From Clavulina sp. PMI_390 (Eukaryota > Basidiomycota > Agaricomycetes > Cantharellales > Hydnaceae): a DNA stretch of 64,000 nucleotides. Below are positions 6,761 through 17,728 of this stretch, one piece after another. The first letter of the stretch is position 1, and every line of letters begins with the position of its first letter. The stretch is from NCBI GenBank assembly GCA_015039315.1, contig WIDE01000003.1, positions 434,001 through 498,000 on the forward strand, in the 5' to 3' direction. A program made the position numbers and the translations under genes. Under the pieces are notes generated by a model. It did no database searches and was not told the DNA's origin. It was given only the letters and a program-made list of their open reading frames with translations.

Positions 6761-9681
6761 CTACTTGGCAGGGTGGGCCTCGAGCCAGGACGTCAAAAGC
6801 TCGAGTAAATCGGCTTTCTTTGCACCGGTTGGAGCCTTGGCCCCCTTGGCCTTGAGGAAGTCCTTCATGACTGCTACCGTTAACTAGATCATACTGTTAA
6901 TGAGGGGCAGCTAGCCTGGATGAGGGAAGCTGGTCTAACCTTTGCAAGAGTTCCCTCTTCGTAGCGGCTCCGGATTTCGGACTCGTCATATGCATCATCA
7001 GTCTGTAAATACCACACATCCAAGTTAGTCACATTTCGGCAACGTTCGTGCAACTATTCAGGATTCACCTCAGCAGCAGCGCGCTTCCGTGATGCTTTCC
7101 CCACGAGCTGGGCAGCATCCTCGTTCTCAAGCACTTCTCCCCATTTTTCGATCACTTTTGCTGTTTTCTTAAAGTGAGGGTGAGACTACAGTGTTAGATT
7201 CAATCCATAGGTATGTTACTCACAGAATGAATGTGATCGTAGTTGGGTAGCGTGGGATCCTCGATGGAGTCTGGGTCAAATGGAATTGTTAACGCATGAG
7301 CCTCGACCTGGGCGAAGTGAAGGGCAAGAGCTGTCAAAAGAGATTAGCGCCTTCACTACAATTTCCATGTACCGGCAAGACGCGTACCTGGGTTAGTGAA
7401 AGAGTTGGGATTATAGCCGTTCTTGAGGGTCAACTTTTTGAGGATTTGGGTTGCGGCATCAACCAGTTCACTCGAGGCTAGGACCAGTGGATATGAGCTC
7501 ATAGCCTCTTCTCGAGCCCTAGATAATTGAAAGCACACCTTTATACGCTTCGGTGATTGGTGCATCGCGGATCTCGTCCGCAAAAGGCAGTGGGATGAGA
7601 TGCAGCCCAGGAGGCTTGTCTTGAATGCCATCTTCGTCCAACTTTTCCACCTACAAAAAAAAAGCTTAGCTGCGAGGGTATGGAAAGTCAGAGATGTACA
7701 GACTTGAGGGACCAGTGCACAGAACAAAGGAGTTGAGTTGATTCGCATCATCACACGACAAATCCCAATCTTATTCTGCTTGACGAGCGATTTCAGCAGT
7801 GCTGAAAATGTCCTGGTCGACCCAAGATATCTCTGGGAAAGAACTGTGATCAATAGCGTGGGCAATAAGTAGGATTCGCTACGTACCCCTTCATCTGGAT
7901 ACAAGAAATAAGCATGCTTGGTATTATCCTCAAATTGTAAATATGAGCTATCTTTGAAACCAAGAACCTTGATTCCTACAGGGTAACGTAAGTCGCAAAT
8001 TGAATGCTTCAAATCTTTGACTTCACACCTGGCTTCAGTCCCAGTGTCTTCAGTTCGCGAATCTGACTGGCAGTAAAGACAGCCTATGGCAGTAGATGAA
8101 CGTCTGCGTATCGGTTGAAATATGATAGTGCTCACTTTCTGAGCTGTTGCAGTTTCACTTGATGGCGTGGGGAGATGCAAAGGCTTCGCATCTTCCACCT
8201 TGACAGTTGGCTTTTTGGTGGCACCTCCTTCGTTCTCTCCTCCAGAAGTGGGGGTGCTTTCAAACTTGCTGGGGAGGCCGTATAATACTTCAGCATCCAG
8301 GATGGTATTCTGTTGCTCCTATTACGTCGGAAGTCGATGAATAAACAATGATCGTGCAGAATGCCAAAGAATGAAACACCTTGTCGAAATAGGTCCGCCT
8401 ACTGACTACTTCCTCAGCCGTAGCACCACTACCGGCCATGTATCGATGTTGGGGTTTCCTTTGCTCCATGACGAGGCCATATCTTGAATACGAGGGTTTG
8501 AGTGTTGGGTCACTCGACGGCACGAAAACCTGAAACGAACCCTTTGATCCCAATTGTTAACCCGTCCGCAATCTCCATCGGAATACTCCACATTGCTCGC
8601 TTGGCCATTTCACGGATCCTCATCTCCGCGATGACACCTTCGAACCCCTCACACACATCACCGAATGGGAGTGTGTCCTCGTCGTTGCCGCCTGCGGTAA
8701 AAACCGGCTATGAAAGAGCAGATTAACGTCCGAAAGATCAGGGAGACAATATAGTTGCTTACAGCGTAGAATTTGTTTACGTCGAATGGTTTCTCGTCTG
8801 TGCTGATGAAGAATGGTACGATAGAAATACCTTGAGCCACAAGGTCCTACGAATCGGGTCAGTGGGAAGTGGGCACTCATCGGATCCACATACCTCAAGG
8901 CGTTTCCACGAAGGCTGCTCAGGACTTCCAGGATTGTCTTCATCTGTCACATAAAAGATGCGCTTGATAGCGGTTTTTGGGGCCCTACTCCCATGATGAG
9001 CCTTAAGCATAAAGCTTGAGTTGTTGCCTTGACAGACAGACGTACCCCTCTCGCAAAACCTGATTACAGGATGCGAAGACATCACCAATGGCTATGCTGG
9101 GCGCAGGTTTAGGAGCGAACTCTCCTCTCAAGCTGCTGGGGTTTGTAGCCGCGTCTACGTAATTGCTCAGCAATTGACCGGTAAGGATGTTATCTTAAGA
9201 CGATATTCAAAACTTACCATCAAGGGTATTCATCAACTGCAGCATGGTGTCAGCACTCAGTGGCCCTACAGGTAGATAGAGCCAATGATTCTTCATTGCC
9301 TGATCTCCATTCGTTTCTTCCTAAGAGCGAACGATATGCTTCAGAAACCGCAGCAGGTGCTGTAAATACCCGTACCGTATTGAATAAAAGGATCCCGACA
9401 GAGTCATTGGGGCGTGTAATAACCTTTCGCTTCATGACGTCGAGCGCACACTGGAGGGCGTTGTGCAGATGACTCCTTGCTCCCTTTGCATCGGGGATCT
9501 GCTGCATAGATTCCGACGCATCGATGCAGAACAGTATAGTGTCTTTGGTTACCAAAGAGCTCTTAGTATCAGGTGAAGTGTGAGTGGTGGGCTCCACCAG
9601 CATGCTACTCAATGTTGTGCGTCTCACCAGTTCATCGTCAAGATCCTCATCATCTTCTGGGGCGATCCAGCCTTTGTCCAT
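6761..9681 (-). CDS. KU70: Ku70, DNA-end-binding subunit of the Ku heterodimer (NHEJ)
   Basis: Ku70 pairs with Ku80 to encircle broken DNA ends for non-homologous end joining and also acts at telomeres in the nucleus. The start at 9681 gives [15 protein letters not shown] followed by a von Willebrand-A-like fold ([34 protein letters not shown]). Multiple exons then carry the Ku core: [40 protein letters not shown] and [17 protein letters not shown]. The last exon encodes a C-terminal SAP DNA-binding motif ([12 protein letters not shown] ... [14 protein letters not shown]) and stops at 6761. The SAP tail distinguishes it from Ku80. The gene is broken by many small introns, so individual exon limits are not all certain. 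It is followed on the same strand, 196 bases on, by the glutaredoxin gene. Confidence 0.93.
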
Positions 9682-9888
9682 AGTTCAAATCGATTCAGAG
9701 GCCAAATTAGATCAAAAACGCGTCAAAGACACAAGACAAGTCACGACGCGAGTCAAGTGTTACTATTAGTGTCTGTTTGGAACACGCGTTGTATGCACAA
9801 ACAAACTGTGGTGGATTGCGATGATGCTGAATAGGCAAACTAATTATACTATATTTAAGGATACATGAGGGACACAGAAAGAAACAAA

Positions 9889-11369
9889 TCACATCCTCGA
9901 CATCCGTTGTTTGTTGAGGGCCACCTTCCGCTGTACCTGCCGCAAGCGAGCCTCTTGTGCACGCCGCCGCTCTGCCTCGATGAGTGTCTGTTGGGAGTTG
10001 GTGCCCGATGTACCAACATTACTCTTTGGCACAATCTCGAATGCCGGCATGGCGCGTTGTGGAATGCGGACGGCATTCCTACGTACGCGGCCAGCGTCCT
10101 CGATCCTACCCTGAGCGAGAATCTGACTGAGTTTGATGGGCTTCTTGCCAGAGGCTGGGTCCACATCGGCAGTGACAAGAGTCCGGTCACGATAAGAGGC
10201 CGATCGTTTGAGGATAGGACGAGACCATGTCTGAACAAGGTTGGTAGCTTGATTCTTGATGGCAGGTGTGACGCGTTTGTTCTTCTTGGTATAGAAGAGC
10301 ATGATGCGACCGAGCCCAGATTCCTTTAGCGCGTTAGCGTCGATGAACATCTATACCAGAAGAATAGTCATGAGCGAGCCTTCTATATGCAGCAAGGCAT
10401 ATGGCATTAACGAACTTTGCCCAAAGCTTCGAACAAATTGCGCTGAATAGTCAAACCAGGGAGTGATTTGTCACTCAGAGGCTCCAGCCAGATGCGCACG
10501 TTCTCGAGTAAATTGTGGTCGATGATTGATTGCATCAGAGATTGTCTTGAGTTTTCATGAGCTGCCGGGGTTAACTCCAATGGACATGCGTAGAACATAC
10601 TTTTGAAGAACATCAACAACGTCTTGTAGGATCTTGAGCTTCGCGACTGCGGGTTGACCCTTTTTGTTTGATTCCTGGTCCTCTAAAGCCGCCAACTCCA
10701 TGGCGAGTTTGATCTTGACCACTTCCGCATCGGCTGCCGCATCCAATTCCTGCGGTCCTCAAAATTAGAGAAAATGGCAACAGAATACGAAAATTAGAAG
10801 GATAGAGTTTGACCCACGTCTTCATCACCCTTTTTCCTTTTCTTAGGGCGATTTGACCTTCCCATTCGAGCTGCTGCATCGATCCTCTTGTTCAACTCCA
10901 TTTTTGCTCCTGGAGTCGTGAATGCTATGAGTTTGGGGAGCATGTGGTGATCACAAATGCTCACTTTCTTCCTCGGTCATCGGAGGCTCATCTGGGGCCA
11001 ACTCCTCTGCCGGCTCCTCAGCGCGTGCCGTTGTGCGAGAGCGTCGCTTTCGACGAGCTTGGGTAGCACCGCCCTCACCGGCAGAGACCTTCTTCTTTTT
11101 GAACGAAGGGAGGGCACGCGGAGCATCGTCATCTCGATAGTCCCCATCACCTTCTTCCTCTTCAGATTCCCCTTGTGGTGCGGGCGAGTGTTGTGTACTC
11201 CGACGGCGAGTTTGCTCGGAGCGTTGTGGGCGCTCTAGAATAAGCAACGAAACTCAGATAGACATCTTAGGGGAGAAGTAGCGAAGAGATTCAGACCATC
11301 CTCAGAAGACAAGTCATCGTCGTCGGAACCACCAAAGATTTCACGTTGAAGGTCTTCCTGGTCAGGCAT
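9889..11369 (-). CDS. IWS1: Transcription elongation factor Iws1/Spn1
   Basis: Iws1/Spn1 binds Spt6 and elongating RNA polymerase II and supports chromatin maintenance in the nucleus. The start at 11369 gives MPDQEDLQREIFGG, with a strongly acidic first exon (GSDDDDLSSEDG). An acidic and basic low-complexity region follows (SEEEEGDGDYRDDD, TQARRKRRSRT). The conserved TFIIS N-terminal-like (TND) core then reads SLMQSIIDHNLLENVRIWL, EPLSDKSLPGLTIQRNLFEA, LKESGLGRIMLFYTKKNKR and QTWSRPILKRS. A basic C-terminal tail ends QRKVALNKQRMSRM. Five or so exons are implied. The gene is divergent from the lyase-kinase fusion, with only 253 bases between the start codons, so they share a promoter region. 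Confidence 0.93.
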
Positions 11370-11622: not shown

Positions 11623-14600
11623 ATGAGTGATAGCACAGATCCTCCAACGCCCGTGCCGGACTCTCCTATGAGCTCCTCGCGCACACGGCAGTATAAATTC
11701 TCCACGCTCTGTGCGACCGTCGAGAATCCCAGTCAAAAGGACCAATATGGCTCGAGCTCGGTCCCCATTTACCAAACCGCTACTTTCAAGGGAGTAGACG
11801 GTCAATATGACTACACTCGTAGTGGAAACCCCACCCGTAGTCATCTTGGTAAGTTCCTGTTGCTTTCCGTCGCCTAGACTCGCGGGATGTCAATATCGTT
11901 GAGTATTGATCATTCACTTGTGCAGAACACCACATTGCGAAGATATCATCCGCTCGCCATGCCATGACAGTCTCATCAGGAATGGCCGCGCTAGATGTCA
12001 TTACCCGTCTATTGAAACCCTCGGACGAAGTAATTGCTGGAGACGATCTCTACGGAGGGACCAATCGGCTCCTCACCTATCTCAAAACCCACAACGGGGT
12101 CGTTGTCTTTCACGTCGACACCACCGATACCAAAGCCGTTATCCCCCACCTTTCCGAAAAAACCGCGATGGTTCTGCTAGAAAGCCCAACGAATCCGCTG
12201 CTCAAGATTGCGGACCTCCAAGAGATCATCCTTGAGGTTAAGGCCCGATCGCCGCAAGCTGTCATCGTTGTTGATAATACGATGATGAGCCCATATCTCC
12301 AACGCCCTTTGGAGCTTGGTGCGGATATCGTGTATGACAGTGGCACAAAATATTTGAGTGGCCATCACGACCTGATGGCTGGTGTTATCACCTGCAATCG
12401 CGACGACCTTGCAAAGGTATGCACCACAATCCTCCTGTCTTCTCCCCAAACTGAAGTGTATTTTACATTCTCCAGCAAATGGCATTCGTTATCAACTCGG
12501 TTGGTAATGCTCTAAGCCCATTCGATTCTTTCCTGCTCTTGCGAGGGACCAAAACACTCGCTATTCGCATGGACAGGCAGCAAGCTTCTGCTATGCGAGT
12601 GGCTTCGTACCTCGACCAATTGGGATTCAGGGTTCATTATCCTGGCCTTGCAAATCATCCTCGACGAGATGTCCACGAGAAGCTCGCAAATGGTCCTGGT
12701 GCTGTGCTCAGCTTCATCACTGGCGATACAGCGATGAGCGAGAGGATTGTTGGCGCGGCGAGATTGTGGGGTATCAGCGTCAGTTTCGGGGCGGTGAACT
12801 CCTTAATCAGCATGCCTTGTTTGATGTCGTAAGTGCTTCTCTCTGGACGATCGAAAATGGTTCATTCATTTGCGTTTGTTCAGCCATGCCTCCATTGATC
12901 CTGCTACTCGGGCGGCTCGTGGCCTACCTGAGGACCTCATTCGACTCTGCGTAGGTATAGAGGATCCCGACGATTTGGTAGAGGATTTAGAACGCGCTTT
13001 GCTCGAAGCGGGAGCGATAACTCTCACTCGAGATGCCAATGGGGAGGAGGTCTACACTCGCATCGGCCATGCTCCTGGTGGACCATTCGGTCAAGCCCTA
13101 GAGAAGCTCACGAATGATGCCATTGGCCTAAGCCTCCAGCCGTCTGGCTCACAAGACGAGTACCTCGTCTCCGCTCCCGGTAAAGTTATCCTTTTCGGGG
13201 AGCACGCCGTCGTCCATGGCGTCGTAAGCCCAGAACCCTCATTCAGACCTACCTAGTCAGCTCACAGTGTTTTCTGTCCTAGACTGCGATAGCGGCCGCT
13301 GTTGATCTACGATGCTATGGTCATGTCGTGCCTCGACAAGACGGGAAAATCTCGCTTCGTCTTCCAGACATCGATAACACTACTGTCGAGTGGGACATCA
13401 AAGACCTCCCTTGGGACGTCGTAAAGCCTATTGCTCCAGGTTCTGAACATCCTGATACCTTGGACGCCAACCTGGTGTCTGCTATTACCTCTACGTGCAT
13501 TCCACCGCCCCTGGCAGCCAATAAGCGTGTGATCGGTTCCTGTATTGCCTTCTTATATCTGTATTTGTCTTTGGCGACCGTGGAGTCTAGGTAGGTGCTA
13601 TCACCGTGGCTGAAAACCGAATGTGGATACTGACACGCTTTTAGGCCGAGCATCACGTTCACAGCTCGTTCGACCCTCCCGATCGGTGCTGGCCTCGGCT
13701 CTTCCGCTTCTTACAGCGTTTGTATCGCCACTTCTATCCTCCTTCTCAACTCGCGGATATCTATCCCACCAGAGCCTGCACCGACCCGCCCTGCTACATC
13801 AACCGCAGACCCTGGTCATGTCCATGTTTCGCATGGTGGCAGAAGGGCCTTGCCCAAGCCATTCGCTGACGAGGTCAATAAATGGGCTTTCGTTTCAGAA
13901 AAAGTCCTTCATGGCACTCCTAGTGGGGTAGACAACTCTGTTGCTGTCTACGGTGGTGCTCTCGCTTTCACCCGCAGTGGCTTTGGGAGAGAGGGTGGCC
14001 TGGAAGGCATTCAGGGGTAAGCTATAGGCTGACTTGATCACCTTTTTACTCACTTGTAGCTGACCGTTATAACAGGTTCAAGTCTGTTCGCTTCCTCCTC
14101 ACCGATTCAAAAGTCCCTCGGGATACCAAAAGCCTTGTGGCAGGCGTCAGTGCTCTCAAACAAGAGGTATGTCTTCTCAGTGTCCGATCAAAGCCTTTCC
14201 GACTTATGCCAGCGCTCGTAGAAACCAGACCTTGTCGGAGATATTCTGACATCAATTCAAACCATCAGCGACGAAGCTCAACGCGCTCTCAGCGATCCTG
14301 AGCTACCCCGAGAATCGCTTCTCTCTGGTCTTTCGGGTCTGATTGACGAAAATCATGCTCACCTTGTCACGCTCGGTGTCTCGCACCCCTCGCTAGAAGC
14401 GATCAGGCAGATAACTGGCGCTAAGCAATATAATCTACACACTAAACTTACGGGGGCTGGTGGTGGTGGTTGTGCTGTCACTCTTATTCCAGATGGTACT
14501 TGGTCTCATCCTCTTGTTGCGTATTCATCGAAGCTAATGACTTTTTCAGGCTTCCGGGATGCATCAGTTGGTGCTTTGCTCTCTAGCCTGCGAGAGGCAG

Positions 14601-14764
14601 GGTTTGAACCCTACCTTACTAATGTGGGAGGGAGCGGGTTAGGCGTTCTTCCCTCTTCATCGCCTCTAGCACAAGATGTAGCTGGGTGGGAATCGCTTTC
14701 TGACAAGCCATTGGAGGAATTCTCAGCTTGGGTGGAAGGGAGAGGGCGATGGCTATACGTTTGA
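11623..14764 (+). CDS. Cystathionine beta-lyase / mevalonate kinase fusion protein
   Basis: Nine exons read in unbroken phase (11623-11848, 11926-12416, 12476-12828, 12884-13223, 13283-13590, 13645-14016, 14076-14166, 14222-14495, 14550-14764), giving 889 residues. Residues 1 to about 402 form a complete Cys/Met-metabolism PLP enzyme of the cystathionine beta-lyase type, which makes homocysteine from cystathionine: DYTRSGNPTR, MTVSSGMAALD, the PLP lysine in YDSGTKYLSGHHD (K217), LLLRGTKTLAIRM, and the end LEDLERALLEAGAI. Residues 403-449 are a linker containing no methionine. Residues 450-889 form a complete GHMP-type mevalonate kinase, the ATP-dependent isoprenoid/sterol enzyme: SAPGKVILFGEHAVVHG (453-469), PIGAGLGSSAS (585-595), GTPSGVDNSV and LTGAGGGGCAV (803-813). 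The domain boundary lies inside exon 4. A bifunctional protein or one cleaved after translation is inferred. The gene shares a promoter region with IWS1. Confidence 0.93.
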
Positions 14765-14860: not shown

Positions 14861-17728
14861 ATGGCTGGACGTCCCTCGCTCGCTCTATCATTATCACCAT
14901 CACCTTCAGAGGACAGGCAATCTTGGATAGCATCTCCTAACGGGTCCAGGATTGCACCTTCTCCCTCCGCCACTCACGAGCGGTTTCCTAACAACGCAAC
15001 AAGAAATCCTCTCTCGCTCCGTCTCTACAAGTCTCTCTCCTCAAGCTTTCAGGATGCCACTTCGCAGGAAGCATTAGACACTCTATCATCACTATATGGG
15101 CCCCCAAAGACCGCCCCTCGCCTCCCTGCCCCGCCCACCGATGATGAGGATTCTTCCTCTGACGATGAAGCGGACGCGCTGGCTGGCGAATCGGGCTTGT
15201 TCAATCAATCTGTCCCCCTTGGGGATATTACCGTGGCTGAGAGAGCGCGAAAGAACTCTAGGCGAGATGTTGAGCAACAATTAATCTCCAGTAGCATCCG
15301 GTTTCTGCATGCATTCGGTGAAGTAAATCAGGTGAGTGCTCGGCATCCAACTATTGCCAATCTGCCTTAGTTATCTTGCTGATGCCATGGCAAAGAAATT
15401 GGACGTGCTTCAAACTCATATGGATGACATGAGAGCTCGATGTGACGAGGCGCAGACTGAATTGTCGAAAACAAGCGAATCGTCTAAACTCCTACTTGAA
15501 AAAGCTGGAGGGCTCCGAGCTCAACGGTACGCAAAATTCCTATTCGAGGTCAGCGCCGTATTGAACGCTTTCCCCCCTTGCTTACTCGAACTGCCAGACA
15601 TGCCACGGCTATTCGCCAAAATATCATCTCTTCATTCCTCGGACGATTCACCCTTTCAGAGGCAGAAATGGAATCCATAACATCCCACGACGTTCCTGTT
15701 GGAAAACAGGTTTTCACTGCTATGGACCGGGCAGAGAAAATTCGCGAGGACTGCCAGGTTTTGCTGAGTGGAGACGATGGCGCTGGCACCAAGGCAGGGT
15801 GAGGGCTTCACAGTCATCTCCAACATCAATGTGCCGAGCTAATACTAGTTTGAAAGGCTGGATATCATGGCTAGGACTGGCGATCAACTCGATAATGCAT
15901 ACGCCAAAGTCCAACGATGGTGTTCCTTCGAGTTCCGGCAGTTAGGAAAGGATTCGCACCTGGAAGTCTCGCGTGTCATGAGAGAGGCTGTCGCGAGGTT
16001 GAAAAAGAGGCCCGACATCCTCAGGTAAGATTTCCAACTCCGCATCACTGAAACAGCGTTTTTTAATTCGTTCATGTTAAGTGTGGCCCTCTCTGATCTA
16101 GCTGTGATCCGTCAAACCACCTTGTTAAATATGTTCACCACTGCCCTCACTCGAGGCGGCCCTTCAGGACTGCCCCGTCCAATCGAACTTCATGCCCACG
16201 ATCCGATCCGATATGTTGGCGATATGCTCGCCTGGGTCCATCAAGCAATGGCGACGGAAAGGGAGTTCCTAGACTCCTTGTTCGGACTACACCAAGAAAA
16301 GCGTATGGTGGGGAGCTCCTGGACGCGCGACACTAAAGAGGGCGAGTCTGAGAGCGAGGAAACAATCTGGGTGAGGGACTTGATGGATAAAAACCTCGAG
16401 AAGTTGTGTACACCGCTCAAGGTAAGTAGCTTGCTTAATGTGTTGAAGCATTCGTGTTGCTAAGTCTGGTTTTTGATCGGTCTAGATTCGGGTCCAACAA
16501 ACTATAAAATCACAAGAAGGTAGTATCACCGCTTACAAGATTGCCAATCTCCTCAGTTTCTATCTGCTGACAATGAGGAGAACAATCGGAGATGAGGCTT
16601 TGCTGACGAAAACGCTACAAACGTGAATCCTACCCTCTCGCATAAGAAAATCTCCTCTAACGCATTTTGTGCAGTGTTACGGATCTTTCGACTCACGTGT
16701 TTATTGAGACTATCCAATCTCAAGGTCGAAGTCTACTACGATTCTTACAGGTAAATCTACTTCTTCATGGACCCAACTGTCGTAACTAATTTGTCTCTAG
16801 CCGCCAGATGCAGATCTCTCTCCTCCTTTGGCGCTGCGCGATGTGTCCCAAGTGCTTCGTGAGATCATGACCGTTTACGATTCATCTATGCTAGAGTTGG
16901 AGGCTGGGTCCACCATTTCAGAGGAAACTGCCAAAACAGAACGCCAAGAGTTCAATCGTATCATGGACGCGGCTGTTGGGCCAGCCCTCGAGATGTGTCG
17001 TAGAATGGCCAGTCTGAAGAAAGATGGTACTGAGCGCGAGAAAGAGATTTTCTTGGTGAACTGTGTAGCATATCTCCAGGTATGGCGGATCTGCTGCTAC
17101 CTGCCAGCCTACTGAACTCTCCTGTCGTATCTACAGGGCACATTCCACCCTTTCGCGTTCGCTGCAGCCCGCGTTGAGGATCTGGACCGAGAGCTAGACT
17201 CCCATATTGCGCTTCTTGTTGCGGAGCACGTAAGTTTTCTTTCTATAGATAACAAATTATGGACACCTAACTAATGCTCTTCAACAAGTATTCCCAACTG
17301 CTTGCGGAAAGTGGTTTATCAAATTTGATTGAGCTGCTCAAGACCAAGCCGTCAGATGTATGCATGACCATAGTCTTCTAACATCTTGTACTAACCGACC
17401 TTCTGGTGAATAGACCCCTCTGTCGCGTCTCCCATCGGCTACACCACAAGACATCACACAAGCTCTCAATCGATTCGACACCTTCCTGTCTTCTCTTGAT
17501 GTGCTCACGTCGCCACGCTTATCGCTCATCGCGTACCCCACAATCTCAAGTCGTGTTCACCGGGAGGCTCTGCGGAAAGTTGGAGACGCTTATGGTGCAG
17601 TGTGTGGTGCCGTTCGAGATCCCGCGAACAAGTATGAGTTTGCAGCAACCGTGCTCGGCACGAAGCGACCATTCGGTCAGATGTCTGTTCTGTGGCAGGT
17701 CCTCAATATTTCTCCCTCGAGTACATAG
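14861..17728 (+). CDS. COG6: Conserved oligomeric Golgi complex subunit 6
   Basis: COG6 belongs to lobe B of the COG tethering complex, which recycles Golgi glycosylation enzymes. The start at 14861 gives MAGRPSLALSLSPSPSEDRQ, a Ser/Pro-rich N terminus. It is followed by the family's characteristic LSLRLYKSLSSSFQDATSQ, EALDTLSSLYG, an acidic stretch (DDEDSSSDDEADA) and RRDVEQQLISSSIRFLHAFG. Further exons encode a helical coiled region (LDVLQTHMDDMRARCDEAQT) and long alpha-helical segments (DPIRYVGDMLAWVHQAMATE, LRDVSQVLREIMTVYDSSML, MDAAVGPALEMCRRMASLKK). The last exon has the conserved tail (VHREALRKVGDAYGAV, LGTKRPFGQMSVLWQ) and stops at 17728. About ten small exons are implied. The start lies only 96 bases after the stop of the lyase-kinase fusion on the same strand. 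Confidence 0.92.

Follow-up and report, generated by a model that had tools for sequence, protein, structure and literature searches.

The locus at 11623-14764 (+ strand) of the coral fungus Clavulina sp. PMI_390 very probably encodes a genuine single-chain protein with two enzymes, a cystathionine beta-lyase followed by a mevalonate kinase, inherited from an early basidiomycete. The two enzymes are unrelated, the first belonging to methionine synthesis and the second to sterol synthesis. Positions refer to the window, the whole stretch of 64,000 nucleotides that was analysed. The gene begins with an ATG at 11623, ends with a TGA at 14762-14764 and consists of nine exons.

Exon 1, 11623..11848, + strand: start codon, N-terminal arm and beginning of the cystathionine beta-lyase domain
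Exon 2, 11926..12416, + strand: lyase core, including the PLP lysine K217
Exon 3, 12476..12828, + strand: lyase C-terminal domain (S348)
Exon 4, 12884..13223, + strand: last part of the lyase (R377), the linker (about 403-449) and the first part of the kinase (K457, E463, H464)
Exon 5, 13283..13590, + strand: mevalonate kinase, assigned by alignment to rat MVK 1kvk
Exon 6, 13645..14016, + strand: mevalonate kinase, with the GLGSSA motif, E658 and D669
Exon 7, 14076..14166, + strand: mevalonate kinase, with T714
Exon 8, 14222..14495, + strand: mevalonate kinase, with the GAGGGG motif
Exon 9, 14550..14764, + strand: kinase C-terminus and stop codon TGA; the preceding 54 nt are missing from relatives

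Resplicing of these exons gives one protein of 889 residues, in phase throughout, as the earlier note had read it, and the rebuilt chain is identical to the deposited Clavulina sp. PMI_390 protein (889 aa, named "cystathionine beta-lyase"). All eight introns are of the GT-AG type, with lengths from 54 to 77 nt.

One frame through both domains

The cystathionine beta-lyase spans residues 24-402 and the mevalonate kinase residues 450-889 (both approximate), each domain being complete. Exon 4, which covers residues 357-470, holds the end of the first and the start of the second in one open frame, with neither stop nor intron, and the join is indeed inside this exon. The PLP motif SGTKYLSGH, including K217, is found at 214-222. 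The three kinase motifs are PGKVILFGEHAVV at 455-467, GAGLGSSA at 587-594 and GAGGGG at 805-810. In the rebuilt protein, K217 and these motifs lie at the places claimed by the earlier note.

In terms of possible internal starts, methionines are present at 1, 16, 89, 95, 157, 195, 196, 226, 241, 271, 279, 326, 352 and 356. It had been argued that a linker without methionine leaves the kinase with no AUG of its own. The case is stronger than that, as 356 is the last methionine and both the linker and the kinase half of the Clavulina protein lack this residue.

The earlier note also proposed a search for basidiomycete proteins with both domains, and a set of 193 fused proteins, each 800 aa or longer, was collected, Clavulina included. 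They comprise the best 120 of 1260 matches to the Clavulina protein (itself among them) and 73 more (P0241-P0313), added by a search started from a more distant fused protein, P0211. The shorter P0211, P0142 and P0144 were left out.

At the position of intron 8, 191 of the 193 fused proteins have no residues (Clavulina included), one protein has a single residue and another has nine. The intron itself (14496-14549, + strand) is 54 nt long, stop-free and a multiple of three, so that a retained intron would lengthen the kinase by 18 residues and keep the frame. An eight-exon reading of 908 aa, which keeps intron 8 with the frame open, was set aside and the nine-exon form preferred because of these 191 proteins.

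Lastly, nine non-NCBI matches among the best 120 of 1260 have contig data. Six of them contain a full-length fused frame of 900-925 codons, filling 89-95% of contigs of 2.9-3.1 kb, and these short contigs are probably spliced transcripts or cDNA. A fusion of the same kind was seen as a mycelial unigene in Pleurocybella porrigens, according to the accessible text of that report (PMC3720577).

Annotation of the two halves

Pfam assigns Cys_Met_Meta_PP (PF01053) to residues 32-396 and both GHMP_kinases_N and GHMP_kinases_C to the second half. The first half scores 542 bits against TIGR01329, the NCBI equivalog for cystathionine beta-lyase, with a cut-off of 487.5. Arabidopsis cystathionine beta-lyase (1ibj) aligns to residues 22-395 with E=4.5e-108, the PLP lysine and adjoining motifs being in register; unlike the Clavulina protein, this plant enzyme has no kinase domain. 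As for the second half, rat mevalonate kinase (1kvk) matches residues 7-410 of the 446-aa kinase half with E=3e-72, and human mevalonate kinase (2r3v) aligns nearly end to end with E=7.8e-71. The fold of each half is settled by these matches to proteins of solved structure.

The catalytic roles of the scored residues are those that we take from published work on the cystathionine beta-lyase of E. coli and the mevalonate kinase of rat. For the latter we assume a catalytic set of K13, E19, H20, S146, E193, D204 and T243, and these positions were transferred to the Clavulina kinase half through the 1kvk alignment.

Both active sites are nearly invariant. Y118, D192, K217, S348 and R377 of the lyase are present in each of the 193 fused proteins, with Y64 in 188 (four gaps, one M) and R66 in 189 (four gaps). 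K457, E463, H464, E658 and T714 of the kinase are likewise found in 193/193, while S593 and D669 are each found in 192, with one gap apiece.

Distribution and origin

Besides Clavulina itself, the best 120 of 1260 matches contain 119 proteins whose alignments take in 95-100% of the query at 62-69% identity. These extend across both sides of the join, which rules out a chance joining. We take the named organisms among the 119 to be Agaricomycotina, with Dacrymycetes counted in.

All three subphyla of Basidiomycota are represented among the 193 fused proteins. Among the matches listed, Pucciniomycotina with the fusion include Sporobolomyces, Rhodotorula, Mixia, Microbotryum, Atractiella and rusts, and Ustilaginomycotina include Malassezia, Tilletia, Meira, Violaceomyces and Ceraceosorus. 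Tremellomycetes, Wallemiomycetes and Laccaria were not noticed among the named organisms of the matches listed, where an absence carries little weight. Three of the proteins (P0290, P0295 and P0310) are already named "cystathionine beta-lyase/mevalonate kinase" at source.

Stand-alone kinases were sought with the kinase half in a length-limited search. Of its best 120 matches out of 6487, 23 have the lyase domain PF01053 as well, and many of those lacking it are short or unnamed pieces. Named stand-alone kinases that cover about 90% or more of the query belong, among the matches listed, to other fungal phyla. Four basidiomycete entries, from Inonotus (P0140), Rhizoctonia (P0180), Ceratobasidium (P0148) and Rhodofomes (P0155), are kinase-only with 59-71% coverage, the last two being labelled partial.

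A protein of Lentinula detonsa (P0158, 412 aa) was rejected as a stand-alone kinase: it begins in the lyase tail and lacks both GSSA and GAGGGG. It looks like a broken or decaying duplicate of the fusion, or a truncated model. P0150 and P0139, from the same or a close species, are longer and have, among the matches listed, the lyase domain together with a kinase match.

The stand-alone mevalonate kinases of Umbelopsis, Mucor, Rhizophagus, Lipomyces and Candida are of the same family, with approximately 38-43% identity to the kinase half, and differ from the fused proteins in having no lyase domain. In a kinase tree, 25 of the 193 fused proteins and 16 stand-alone fungal kinases fall on opposite sides of a branch with 99/99 support. 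The placement of one long branch (P0250) is unsure, and the forks among subphyla are partly open. The tree agrees with one fusion event early in the history of Basidiomycota, although its fused side would form a clade only if the root is placed correctly.

The earlier note took the two activities in one chain for an undescribed enzyme. This is denied by the literature, as the fusion was published in 2012 as "metC-MVK" (PMC3342255) and again in 2013 and 2014 (PMC3720577, PMC4129116). What stands of that interpretation is the single chain with both domains, the join in exon 4 and the lack of a kinase AUG; the novelty does not. The metabolic coupling that the note suggested may exist, whereas its alternative of a processed polyprotein has no positive support. 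The fusion is already known, and Clavulina is one more mushroom lineage.

In the accessible text of Liu et al., the fusion is described in 12 basidiomycetes with a mean length of about 886 aa, and its origin is placed in the ancestor of Basidiomycota (PMC3342255). In the genomes analysed there it is the only MVK homologue and the only best cystathionine beta-lyase match; Laccaria bicolor is given as an exception without the fusion, and a 16-aa insertion is reported in the kinase of seven species (PMC3342255). The Clavulina protein has the same domain order and, at 889 aa, a similar length, and the accessible text points to no essential difference; Clavulina is absent from the genomes named in it. 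Both domains in frame, the length, the only MVK and the only best lyase match are all features that the Clavulina gene has in common with metC-MVK.

The same fusion, with 918 aa, is present in Lignosus rhinocerotis as GME67_g (PMC4129116). As far as these sources are accessible, the Lignosus and Pleurocybella fusions have the domain order of Clavulina in other species and do not differ in kind. No enzyme assay or functional work on the fusion was found in the accessible parts of the open-access papers searched.

Copies in the genome and neighbouring genes

The Clavulina assembly (39.4 Mb, 301 contigs) was searched in six frames. The kinase half has only one matching place at E<=0.001, which is the fusion locus. 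Three other GHMP matches are present: two are identified above an NCBI cut-off, one as homoserine kinase and the other as diphosphomevalonate decarboxylase, and the third is a fragment that fits galactokinase best, below the cut-off. No second mevalonate kinase was found in the assembly by this six-frame search with the kinase half and among the GHMP matches.

Considering the lyase, a Cys/Met enzyme paralogue on contig C257 has 36-41% identity and scores 261 bits with TIGR01329, below the 487.5 cut-off. Two shorter matches lie on C274 and C258; the TIGR01329 scoring covered the fusion and the C257 paralogue. Within this scope, the fusion is the only clear cystathionine beta-lyase gene found in the Clavulina genome.

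A divergent gene lies upstream at 9889-11369 (- strand), with a likely start at 11369, chosen by eye, some 250 bases from the start of the fusion. Its piece at 9889-10350 (- strand) carries the TFIIS helical-bundle domain PF08711 (E=9.7e-10). The pieces at 9889-11369 are taken as one putative gene, and its product we presume to be probably an IWS1-like transcription factor. Further upstream, at 9250-9684 (- strand), part of a Ku70/Ku80 N-terminal domain is recognised (PF03731, E=1.5e-11). About 100 bases downstream of the fusion, the next gene on its strand (14861-16500, + strand) matches COG6_N in two exon pieces, neither of which reaches the Pfam cut-off (E=1.4e-05 and 0.00038).

Linker

The linker occupies approximately residues 403-449 in Clavulina, and the corresponding interval (397-452) varies from 34 to 93 residues across the 193 fused proteins, with a median of 51. 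In the best 120 of 1260 matches, mean identity to the query is 0.27 at 401-420 and 0.24 at 421-440, with still lower values at 541-560 (0.21) and 861-880 (0.17). When conservation is expressed through the commonest residue in all 193 fused proteins, no block is lower than 401-420. Among linker positions, R416 (184/193) and L432 (169/193) are the best conserved.

A methionine is found between positions 397 and 452 in 75 of the 193, and only four, Clavulina included, have a kinase half entirely without methionine. The argument against an internal start applies to the Clavulina gene and not to the whole fusion family.

An AlphaFold monomer model was built on an alignment of 60 of the 193 fused proteins, with rust fungi left out by choice. 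Its pTM of 0.54 gives no usable domain packing. Values of pLDDT are below 50 at 1-20, 26-83, 163-165, 218-221, 339-350 and 420-444, including active-site stretches of the lyase, and 420-444 is modelled as a loose stretch. Within residues 402-436 (window 13017-13121, + strand), a beta hairpin is predicted at 402-416 and a helix at 424-436, the former with fair and the latter with low confidence. On this model, the hairpin may still be part of the lyase.

Discussion

The N-terminal half would act as a PLP-dependent lyase that converts cystathionine into homocysteine, pyruvate and ammonia. The kinase half, at the C-terminus, would act as a GHMP mevalonate kinase that makes 5-phosphomevalonate from mevalonate and ATP. 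The two would be joined by a tether of some 35-47 residues that is poorly conserved. With no common substrate, the halves are most likely independent catalytic modules, and since the cystathionine and mevalonate pathways have no common metabolite, we do not expect channelling. A single promoter and a single mRNA would fix the two activities at a 1:1 ratio.

Cystathionine beta-lyases of this lyase's family are tetramers and mevalonate kinases are dimers. By analogy with these habits, the fused protein may build up larger complexes, in which the lyase assembly would probably cluster the kinases. One early fusion in Basidiomycota would be ancestral to the gene, and both activities in the Clavulina genome would be supplied by it. 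The sequences themselves show the fused frame, the conserved active sites, the separation of fused from stand-alone kinases in the tree and the lack of a second mevalonate kinase among the matches in the assembly. We infer both enzymatic activities, the oligomeric state, a single transcript in Clavulina and the lack of proteolytic processing.

Neighbouring genes are often mis-joined in compact fungal genomes, which would make an annotation or assembly error that links two separate genes a natural suspicion. However, the end of one domain and the start of the next share exon 4 in a single frame, and this join is repeated in 192 further fused proteins, from independent genomes and from short contigs that are probably cDNA. 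This reading was rejected on those two grounds, and we regard its probability as negligible. A chain that is translated whole and then cut in the linker, so that lyase and kinase come apart, would agree with the low conservation of the linker and with the modelled loose stretch at 420-444, possibly accessible to a protease. Yet no conserved cleavage-like block is seen in the linker of the 193 fused proteins, its length varies from 34 to 93 residues, and a need for separation would not explain a fusion found in three subphyla; such a processed polyprotein seems very unlikely.

It could also be asked whether one of the halves is catalytically dead and serves the other as a scaffold or regulator, given that the published accounts of the fusion, where accessible, report no measured activity. 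Against this, active-site residues are kept in both halves of nearly all 193 proteins, and no further gene for either activity was found in the Clavulina genome, so that we hold a dead half to be even more improbable than a cut chain. A stable single chain with two working enzymes is the reading that we retain.

Within it, the fusion might serve regulation instead of being a neutral relic: by tying the production of homocysteine to the first phosphorylation of mevalonate, it would match the supply of methyl donors to sterol synthesis. Sterol C24 methylation uses S-adenosylmethionine, which is made from homocysteine by way of methionine. Such matching would work through the fixed stoichiometry, or through feedback of prenyl diphosphates on the kinase that is felt by the lyase. 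Retention in three subphyla and the conservation of R416 and L432 in a loose linker are compatible with this idea, which we nevertheless consider rather unlikely.

The fusion appears to be characteristic of Basidiomycota, and it raises the question of why two enzymes without a common substrate stay in one chain. In practical terms, engineering of sterols or triterpenes in basidiomycetes should treat mevalonate kinase as one half of a larger protein.
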